Shown: positions 1,120 to 3,515 of the stretch, piece by piece
Numbering within the stretch: the first letter of the stretch is position 1
How the letters are laid out: each line of letters starts with the position of its first letter
Source of the DNA: Fibrobacter succinogenes
GTDB lineage: Bacteria; Fibrobacterota; Fibrobacteria; Fibrobacterales; Fibrobacteraceae
NCBI GenBank assembly: GCA_902756345.1
Contig: CACVQR010000007.1
Coordinates: 124,001-188,000, forward strand
Length of the DNA stretch: 64,000 nucleotides
Direction of reading: 5' to 3'
Program-made: the position numbers and the translations under genes
The notes under the pieces: model-generated
Database searches by the model: none
What the model was told of the DNA's origin: nothing
Seen by the model: the letters and a program-made list of their open reading frames with translations, nothing else

Positions 1120-1151
1120 CGATAATTTTAACGATGTTGTTAGTTTGTTTT

Positions 1152-1465
1152 AAATGCTTTTTGAGGGGCTGTACAGGCTAGATAATGTGTAATGGCGGAA
1201 ATGGCCTGTACTATTTTTCGATTTTTTGAAAAAATGAAGGTTGCTTTGCTGCTGGTACAGGTTGAATGGTATACTTGAGCTTGTTAGACCTGTACGAAAC
1301 GCCTTCTTTTCGGTTGTCAAATGCTTTTTGAGAGATTTTGTACAGGCTAAAAGTATTGCGCAATTTGAAAAGGCCTGTACAAGCCGCATTTTTTTTTGAA
1401 AAATCTGGCCTATGTGACATTTTGGTACAGGCTAAAAAGTTTATTGTGGAAAAATTGGTCTGTAC
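1152..1465. repeat. Tandem array of four 41-bp inverted repeats, period 84/85 bp
   Basis: Fills the 356-base gap between the convergent ends of the dipeptidase and priA. Four units of exactly 41 bp (1171-1211, 1255-1295, 1340-1380, 1425-1465) each begin with GTACAGGC or a close variant and end with its complement GCCTGTAC. Starts are spaced 84, 85 and 85 bp. Arms are conserved, the roughly 20-base centres are not. In unit 2 the arm changes from GGC/GCC to GGT/ACC, which keeps pairing. Spacers alternate: those before units 1 and 3 share AAATGCTTTTTGAG (1152 and 1319), and those before units 2 and 4 share a T-run/GAAAAA motif (near 1221 and 1389), so a dimer of about 169 bp seems to have been duplicated. 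Function unknown. Confidence 0.85.
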
Positions 1466-1475
1466 AATACAGAAA

Positions 1476-3515
1476 TTATTCTATTTCTACCTTGATTTCT
1501 ACGTTTTGCACCCAGGGCTTGGCGCCGTTGATGACGGGGTGCAGAATCTTGCGTACAGGCGCTAAGTCCTGGGTCTTGATGTAAAGCTTGGCCCAGTGGG
1601 TGTTTTGGACCACGGGGACAAAGGCATCGACTGGGCCGAGAACCAGAAGTTTCTTGTCGGTGCGCAGAAGTGATTCCAGACGCTCCATGGTGTGGCGGAG
1701 TAAATCTTCGTCGCGGCTGCCGCAGCTGATTTCCACGAGCTTGCAGAAGGGCGGGTAGAAGGCGGCGCGTCGGTCTTCCATTTCCTTGTTGGCAAATCCG
1801 ATGAAGTCGTGGTTCACGGCGAACTGCATCACGGGTTCAGAGGGCTTGAGTGTCTGAATCAGCACCAGCCCCTCGCCGCCGGCACGACCCGCGCGCCCTG
1901 CGGTCTGGCTCAGCAGTTGGAAAAGCCTTTCGGTGGAGCGGAAGTCGGGAATGCCGAGCCCGCTATCGGCGCCAACGACCCCGACTAATTGTACGCCCGG
2001 GAAGTCGTGGCCCTTGGCGACCATCTGCGTTCCAATCAGAACATTGTATTCGCGATTGCGGAACGCGTCAAGAATCTTTTCACTGGCGCCCACGTTCTGC
2101 GTGGTGTCGCGGTCCATGCGAATCACTTTCGCATTCGGAATCCATTCCTTGATTTCGTCTTCGAGCATCTCGATCGCGCCGCCCACAAACTCATAAGTTT
2201 CGGCGCCGCAGGCGCTACACGGTGTGTTCACCGGGTAAAGGGCAGCGCAGTAGTGGCACATGAGCGAGCGGTATTGCTTGTGGTAAACGAGCGGAATGTG
2301 GCAGTGTTTGCAGTAAAGTGTTTCGCCGCATTCGGTACACACGCGCATCTTCGAAAAACCGCGACGGTTCATGAGGATAATCGCCTGGTCCCCGCGCTCG
2401 ATACAATCGGTCAATGCTTCGCGGAGCGCGGGCGACAAGAGGATGCCTTTTTGCTGGCGCATCTTGCTCATGTCGACAATTTGCACCTTCGGGAGCGGCG
2501 CCTGCGTGGCGCGTTCCTTGAGCGTAACCGTCTTTAAGTTGTTCGCTTTCGCGTTGTTGAATGTTTCAAGGCTCGGCGTGGCGCTGCCGAGCACCACGAG
2601 GGCTCCGTACTTGTACGCCAAGTGGAATGCCATTTCGCGGGTATGGTAACGCGGCGCCGGGTCCTGCTGCTTGAAAGAGGAATCGTGTTCTTCGTCGAGA
2701 ATCACGAGGTCGAAATCGAACGGCGCAAGAATTGCGCTGCGGGTGCCGAGAACCACTTGCGCGTCGCCCTTCAAAATCGAGACGTAGCCTTCGCGTTTCT
2801 TGGGCGCCGAAAGTGCGGAATGCAAAACCACAATCGGGACTTGCAGGAAATCTTCGAAGCGCTTGCGCGTTTGCGGCGTGAGCCCGATTTCGGGCACGAG
2901 GATTAAAACTTTCTTGTGGCGCATCAAGGCTTCGCGGGCGAGCTCCTGGTAAACGCGGGTCTTTCCCGAACCTGTAACGCCGTGAAGCAATACGCCGCGG
3001 AATCCGTCTTTGTCCAGTTCTTCGCAAAGCGTGTTGAATGCGTTAGTTTGTTCTAATGTCAACGCCGGAGCTACTGGGGTAGGCTGTCTACTGTCTACTT
3101 CCGACTGTCTACTGTCTGCGGCGAGTGCGTTCAGGTACTTCTCGAAATCGGCGGGCCAAAAAACGAACAGCGCCTTCATGGGTGTGCTAATGTAATACCG
3201 CGCCGTCCATTCGAGCGTTTCCATATAACGTTCGCTAAAGCGGTAGCCCGACTGGTGCGGGTAAGCGGGGCGCACATCAAACTTGGGGCGGTCCTGGTGG
3301 ACGCGTGCGACCACGGCGAGGGCCGGCTTTTTACGGGTGGCAAACTGAACCCATACAACGTCTCCGCGGCAAAGGCTTACTCCGGCGGGCACTCCGTAGG
3401 TGTATACATCGGGCGCCATGGGAATGTACACTTCGCAAAAATCCGTTAACAATTCGGACTTGAGCTTCTGATGAACCTCTTCGGGGGCGCTAAGTTTTGG
3501 GATTCGTTTTGTCAC
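1476..3515 (-). CDS. priA: Primosomal replication restart helicase PriA
   Basis: Superfamily 2 DNA helicase that reloads the replicative helicase at stalled forks. The 679-residue protein is slightly shorter than the usual ~730. Visible landmarks: an N-terminal 3'-DNA-binding domain (CEVYIPMAPDVYTYGVP), Walker A GVTGSGKT (about residue 180), the DEEH box in VILDEEHDSSFKQQD (about 273), a paired zinc-binding region (CTECGETLYCKHC, MCHYC, CSACG, about 395-440), and helicase motifs V/VI (MVAKGHDFPGV, QTAGRAGRAG). Residues about 132-144 (ADSRQSEVDSRQ) are encoded by a heptamer-periodic repeat otherwise found between genes and lie in the linker before the helicase core. The gene is convergent with the dipeptidase. 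Confidence 0.95.
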   Translation of the reverse strand: MTKRIPKLSAPEEVHQKLKSELLTDFCEVYIPMAPDVYTYGVPAGVSLCRGDVVWVQFATRKKPALAVVARVHQDRPKFDVRPAYPHQSGYRFSERYMETLEWTARYYISTPMKALFVFWPADFEKYLNALAADSRQSEVDSRQPTPVAPALTLEQTNAFNTLCEELDKDGFRGVLLHGVTGSGKTRVYQELAREALMRHKKVLILVPEIGLTPQTRKRFEDFLQVPIVVLHSALSAPKKREGYVSILKGDAQVVLGTRSAILAPFDFDLVILDEEHDSSFKQQDPAPRYHTREMAFHLAYKYGALVVLGSATPSLETFNNAKANNLKTVTLKERATQAPLPKVQIVDMSKMRQQKGILLSPALREALTDCIERGDQAIILMNRRGFSKMRVCTECGETLYCKHCHIPLVYHKQYRSLMCHYCAALYPVNTPCSACGAETYEFVGGAIEMLEDEIKEWIPNAKVIRMDRDTTQNVGASEKILDAFRNREYNVLIGTQMVAKGHDFPGVQLVGVVGADSGLGIPDFRSTERLFQLLSQTAGRAGRAGGEGLVLIQTLKPSEPVMQFAVNHDFIGFANKEMEDRRAAFYPPFCKLVEISCGSRDEDLLRHTMERLESLLRTDKKLLVLGPVDAFVPVVQNTHWAKLYIKTQDLAPVRKILHPVINGAKPWVQNVEIKVEIE
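3081..3121. repeat. Heptamer-periodic repeat, family C (CTACTGT type), inside priA
   Basis: The words CTACTGT, CTACTTC, CGACTGT and CTACTGT follow each other at 7-base steps. This matches intergenic copies at 15729-15760, 19213-19306 and 30638-30677. Here it lies within priA and is translated as SRQSEVDSRQ in an interdomain linker, keeping the frame. Confidence 0.8.

Follow-up and report, generated by a model that had tools for sequence, protein, structure and literature searches.

Helically phased palindrome arrays linked to a PD-(D/E)XK-like protein family in Fibrobacter succinogenes

Described palindrome systems and the array in the window

Among described systems, the closest to the element analyzed here are the REPIN-RAYT pairs, which consist of REP doublets and their Y1 transposase (PMC3116915, PMC8049555). 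In both cases a single-copy, mainly vertically inherited gene is accompanied by palindromes that lie beside the gene and are also scattered between other genes, the repeat sequence is specific to the gene type, and the repeats persist in smaller numbers after the gene has been lost. Unlike the RAYT, which is an HUH/Y1 transposase, the enzyme here is PD-(D/E)XK-like. The repeats are helically phased pairs of double-stranded half-sites rather than single-strand hairpins, form arrays of 2-5 units, and number in the tens rather than the hundreds. Examined against the features of REPIN-RAYT, the repeat proved to be both gene-linked and dispersed, whereas the protein had no Pfam or NCBIfam match that would make it a Y1/HUH tyrosine transposase (its motifs are PD-(D/E)XK-like), and the arms vary independently, without the compensatory changes of a REP doublet hairpin. 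Because of these differences in enzyme type and hairpin covariation, the system is not filed under REPIN-RAYT.

Inverted palindrome clusters between genes are also typical of BIMEs and REP clusters, from which the present arrays differ in sequence, in their fixed helical-turn spacing and in the family to which the cognate gene belongs. Phased multi-operator and partition-site arrays, such as the lambda operators and sopC of the F plasmid, consist of regular dyad sites suited to cooperative binding. Repeated dyad sites at regular spacing are found here as well, but at many dispersed chromosomal loci and with arms that change by swaps of the protein N-terminus. RecD-like helicases and the PADLOC candidate PDC-S68 possess a homologous C-terminal domain; here, in contrast, there is no helicase, the variable N-terminal region is a different one, and arrays are linked to the gene.

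The window is the whole stretch of 64,000 nucleotides that was analyzed (assembly GCA_902756345.1, contig CACVQR010000007.1, positions 124,001 to 188,000); its genome is designated G000. As the first-pass annotation had reported, four 41-bp inverted repeats occupy the convergent gap between a vanX-like D-Ala-D-Ala dipeptidase gene (310-1119, + strand) and priA (1476-3515, - strand), two neighbors that are not parts of the system and whose families were judged by eye. A vanX-like homologue also adjoins an array in G052. The units, to which no strand is assigned, lie at 1171-1211 (arms GTACAGGCTAGA / AAATGGCCTGTAC), 1255-1295 (GTACAGGTTGAA / TTAGACCTGTAC), 1340-1380 (GTACAGGCTAAA / AAAGGCCTGTAC) and 1425-1465 (GTACAGGCTAAA / ATTGGTCTGTAC), with steps of 84, 85 and 85 bp, and they are real rather than chance repeats. 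The spacer repeat AAATGCTTTTTGAG (1152-1165, + strand) recurs at 1319-1332, and TTTTTTGAAAAA (1222-1233, no strand assigned) at 1392-1403; these distances of 167-170 bp agree with the suggested duplication of a ~169-bp dimer, which would be an old one. The description of conserved arms around differing centers was borne out by a mean center identity of 0.27 over 29 units of this genome, and a CRISPR array can indeed be ruled out, since the arms alone are conserved, the centers differ, and direct repeats of identical sequence separated by unique spacers are lacking.

A copy of the directional motif TTANTTTRT, TTAGTTTGT, is located at 1140-1148 (+ strand), outside the array and 22 bp to the left of unit 1. 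In 43 of 60 distinct gene-upstream arrays, this motif was found on the strand opposite to the gene, mostly between units (shuffle control for these 60 arrays: mean 3.5, maximum 10). Its directionality in the array spacers implies that the arrays have polarity.

Phased arrays in the genome and its relatives

The strict arm-pair pattern was found at 19 places in the G000 genome and at none for the reversed control, and a relaxed pattern allowing up to three mismatches over GTACAGGYYAAA-N17-TTTRRCCTGTAC gave 27 and none, respectively. A locus scan resolved eight arrays, each made up of three or four units (29 in total) that follow one another at 74, 84-86 or 96 bp, corresponding to 7, 8 or 9 helical turns. 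These arrays sit between convergent, tandem and divergent genes alike, and the spacers of the dispersed ones are mostly unrelated and no longer shared between arrays. One array lies 36 bp from the start of a gene for a protein of 277-279 aa that is present in a single copy in this genome (G000:C1:105467-106303, - strand). It is the cognate gene of the window array and lies outside the window; the window array is a dispersed copy of an array whose cognate gene sits elsewhere in the genome.

The 29 units were also used to examine the symmetry of the arms. Left and right arms agree in 23 units at arm position 8 (22.1 expected under independence) and in 11 units at position 9 (15.6 expected), and the variable arm cells include 44 non-pairing and 18 G-U combinations. 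The compensated change that had been noticed in unit 2 (GGT/ACC) is itself symmetric, but it does not reflect a rule, since the arms vary independently over the 29 units. They thus vary without keeping complementarity, the outcome that the first-pass annotation had named as speaking against its reading: agreement at the variable positions does not exceed chance. Because left and right variants are independent, complementarity is not the conserved feature, and this favors two separately tolerant double-stranded half-sites over an RNA stem or hairpin.

For a genus-wide survey, 91 gene copies were extracted and 520 bp on each side were searched de novo for palindromic pairs, with an array threshold score of 23 (best score in shuffled upstream sequences, 16). 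A phased palindromic array was detected beside 87 copies, upstream only in 66, downstream only in 9 and on both sides in 12. For two of the four array-less copies, the upstream DNA is 87-93% identical to that of an orthologue with a detected array. All 20 held-out gene copies, two of them from another genus, have an array. The 151 steps gave a best period of 10.50 bp with a Rayleigh R of 0.925 (largest random value, 0.242), and R was 0.894 in the held-out set; this is the whole-turn spacing of a phased DNA-binding site array. Such steps are shared by 74 distinct arrays whose spacers are for the most part unrelated, and more than 100 gene copies are accompanied by this geometry with other arms. 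For nearly all related proteins of the genus, the repeats face the same side of the DNA. Among the readings proposed initially, a phased protein-binding array is the one strongly supported by these comparisons, given the whole-turn steps of the 74 arrays and arms that follow the N-terminal segment of the neighboring protein.

A search of relatives' genomes for the window-type arm pair, which had been suggested together with the original description, recovered the element with differing copy number in 3 of 36 further genomes of the genus, namely G005 (8 units), G020 (6) and G046 (1). Orthologous arrays differ by whole units, and the earlier idea of a variable-number element holds in this minor sense: compared with G000, G005 is one 85-bp unit short at glgB, and G046 has a single unit in place of four. 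At the priA/vanX site the array is absent in G046, G003, G020, G061 and G051, and G004 lacks one G084 array at the orthologous site. In genomes without the cognate gene, the number of units per G000-type array is lower (p 0.001, n 8 vs 8). Array DNA was found to be 98.7% identical between L359 and L375, whose flanking genes are 89% and 81% identical, and 100% identical between L382 and L389.

In G052 an array with different arms, TAGTGCAAA (36 bp; steps near 74, 42 and 74), lies downstream of priA, and this genome contains dispersed arrays of that type, in which the order of steps is stereotyped. The gene for a 268-residue protein, which shares 37% identity with the single G000 copy, lies between two near-identical G052 arrays. 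The step order of arrays L307, L309 and L310 in G052 is almost mirror-symmetric, near 74-42-74. In G084 the step order 84/95 is kept in eight of nine arrays and the ninth keeps the total, with differing spacers. Each of the eight genomes with a cognate-type gene contains 2-22 TGCTAC-type units, compared with 0-1, the control level, elsewhere. A loose arm pattern searched in a broad set of genomes and viral contigs returned scattered organisms among the matches listed. Among these, the rumen MAG loci L021, L032, L061 and L093 were rejected, as they contain single units or chance pairs that mostly seem to lie in coding sequence; the Bacteroidales units of L061, with a step of 148, looked promising but appear inside coding sequence.

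The linked protein family and recognition of the arms

No match to the protein family was found among Pfam or NCBIfam models, a profile search of PDB sequences gave no meaningful match, and PDC-S68 of PADLOC matches the C-terminal nuclease part only (E 2e-22). The N-terminal region is variable, with a predicted beta-hairpin, and is followed by a PD-(D/E)XK-like C-terminal domain. The alignment contains conserved RSKSE, PDF and WEH motifs, which are characteristic of PD-(D/E)XK-like nucleases. In 24 diverse members, E169, PD 206-207 and WEH (W221-E222-H223) are invariant or at least 90% conserved; the acidic catalytic motifs of the PD-(D/E)XK superfamily are thus present, with the usual lysine replaced. 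The gene is present in 40 of 61 genomes of the genus, in 0 to 8 copies per genome, and within the phylum it is confined to two genera of one taxonomic family. Genomes of Lachnospiraceae and other Firmicutes contain more distant relatives. Beside such relatives (L493-L498), and beside L443 on a human faecal contig, phased arrays are absent, which means that the nuclease family does not need arrays. The same C-terminal domain ends large RecD-like helicases in viral contigs (L464-L472) and annotated ATPase or helicase genes among plasmid matches (H4-H10). Searches of viral contigs with single family proteins found no relatives, and a search with the alignment found only helicases sharing the nuclease domain. 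The protein family appears to be previously undescribed, as judged from the absent family models and a light open-access literature search, so that a prior description may exist.

Each gene type has its own arm sequence (the protein types include the TTACATACT type and the TACCTATA type), and arm distance correlates most strongly with protein distance in windows covering residues 37-54. Natural exchanges of the N-terminus are particularly informative. L384 and L397 are nearly identical over the C-terminal 200 residues and differ in the first 75, and their arms are GTACCTAT and TACATACT, respectively; L366 and L408 show the same pattern of near-identical C-termini with different N-termini and arms. 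Among protein pairs with C-termini at least 80% identical, which are not mutually independent, an arm run of at least 6 nt is shared by 92% of the 75 pairs with a similar N-terminal segment and by 11% of the 19 pairs with a different one. In five held-out cases with conflicting predictions and a segment identity of at least 68%, the arms were those expected from the N-terminal segment and not those expected from the C-terminus. One of the five, L515, is 97% identical to L382, which has other arms. Since such natural swaps change the arms between proteins with C-termini up to 97% identical, the N-terminal region very probably reads the arms. N-terminal segments have been exchanged by recombination between otherwise highly similar genes, with a change of the linked arms. 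When C-termini are less than 70% identical, the link between arms and segment is not significant (p 0.11), and the arms of several held-out copies (L499, L500, L505 and L512) were mispredicted; the arm-segment code is therefore incomplete.

Proposed mechanism, rival explanations and origin

Dispersal, phasing, gene-array linkage, gene-specific arms, the association of arms with the N-terminal segment and absences at orthologous sites are all evident from sequence comparison, and the following mechanism is proposed. The N-terminal region, with its variable hairpin-like segment at approximately residues 37-54, would read a half-site of about 8-12 bp (here GTACAGGCTAAA), and two protein copies would physically bind one palindrome as a presumed dimer. 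Three or four palindromes at whole turns would then load several dimers on one DNA face, giving a cooperative complex. The same complex would form at the array of its own gene, resulting in probable autoregulation, and also at dispersed arrays in intergenic DNA. The PD-(D/E)XK-like C-terminal domain may act in the spreading or turnover of arrays, for which cleavage and mobilization are envisaged. Gene and arrays would then form a pair of the REPIN-RAYT kind, but with an unrelated enzyme.

The eight chromosomal clusters of G000 are very probably docking sites of the nuclease-like protein, binding being supported by the linkage between arms and N-terminal segments, and it is likely that the window array is a dispersed site cluster of the protein encoded at G000:C1:105467-106303 and works by this mechanism. 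We consider the odds evenly balanced for the broader view that these are undescribed genomic elements, in which PD-(D/E)XK-like proteins with exchangeable N-terminal readers each maintain chromosome-wide phased arrays, control their own gene, and copy or curate the arrays. The findings connect an uncharacterized protein family with probable DNA targets in dozens of genomes. They add another, independent example of the organization known from REPIN-RAYT, a single gene with cognate palindromes scattered through the genome, so that theories on the persistence of such systems become testable on an unrelated enzyme. The natural domain swaps are ready-made specificity experiments, a code for DNA recognition might be derived from the pairs of arms and segments, and the exact phasing at 10.5 bp offers a clear model for cooperative assembly on DNA.

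The strongest competitor, tentative but well worth considering, is a regulator or chromosome-architecture system without mobility, in which the nuclease fold is vestigial, the gene array serves as operator, and dispersed arrays are operators or bridging sites under selection. Arms and spacing are strongly constrained while spacers diverge, array DNA can exceed flanking genes in conservation (L359/L375 and L382/L389), and arrays usually lie upstream of the gene, as this explanation would expect. However, the dispersed arrays between convergent, tandem and divergent genes are not promoter-specific (promoter operators alone were rejected because all gene orientations occur), E169, P206-D207 and W221-E222-H223 show little or no variation, close relatives lack arrays at orthologous sites, and some genes are flanked on both sides. 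We regard as improbable a recognition or defense system whose sequence-specific nuclease effector has decoys or regulatory sites in the chromosomal arrays. The PDC-S68 match (E 2e-22) and the variation in gene copy number from 0 to 8 per genome point that way, but this match is limited to the nuclease part, a domain also found at the end of RecD-like helicases, and no arms were tied to a phage genome, the pattern used on viral contigs being loose enough for chance matches.

The alternative of an RNA hairpin cassette, put forward in the first-pass annotation, with the units as transcribed stem-loops, is largely refuted and very unlikely. Stems of 8-12 bp can be drawn from the inverted repeats, but the arms lack covariation (independent variants, 44 non-pairing cells), the units are spaced by multiples of the DNA helical repeat in arrays whose spacers are mostly unrelated, and an Rfam search of the array region found no family at the array. 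Chance, or a functionless simple tandem (VNTR) duplication, can be regarded as refuted: units are gained and lost in whole steps, as slippage would give, but arms and spacing are preserved across eight unlinked arrays whose spacers are mostly unrelated, and the same geometry with other arms stands beside more than 100 gene copies. MITE-like single units were also rejected, as they would leave the phased inter-unit spacing unexplained.

Several observations count against the preferred mechanism. Most gene copies are inherited in place, the dispersed arrays of G000 have lost any common spacers, and related Firmicutes proteins have no arrays. The G000 gene locus has a clean empty site in nine relatives, and in three of the four closest of them the junction shows an overlap of 8-14 bp, which may represent a target duplication or, just as well, the scar of a deletion. 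In G092 an orthologue occupies this position, which makes an old insertion followed by repeated losses equally possible. No precise transposition event was seen, and presence/absence differences of arrays were seen at orthologous sites. Finally, four G084 arrays (L444, L446, L449 and L452) and the G000 array L261 start just after a T-tract, which in some cases belongs to a terminator-like hairpin; this context suggests a preferred insertion context of dispersed arrays.
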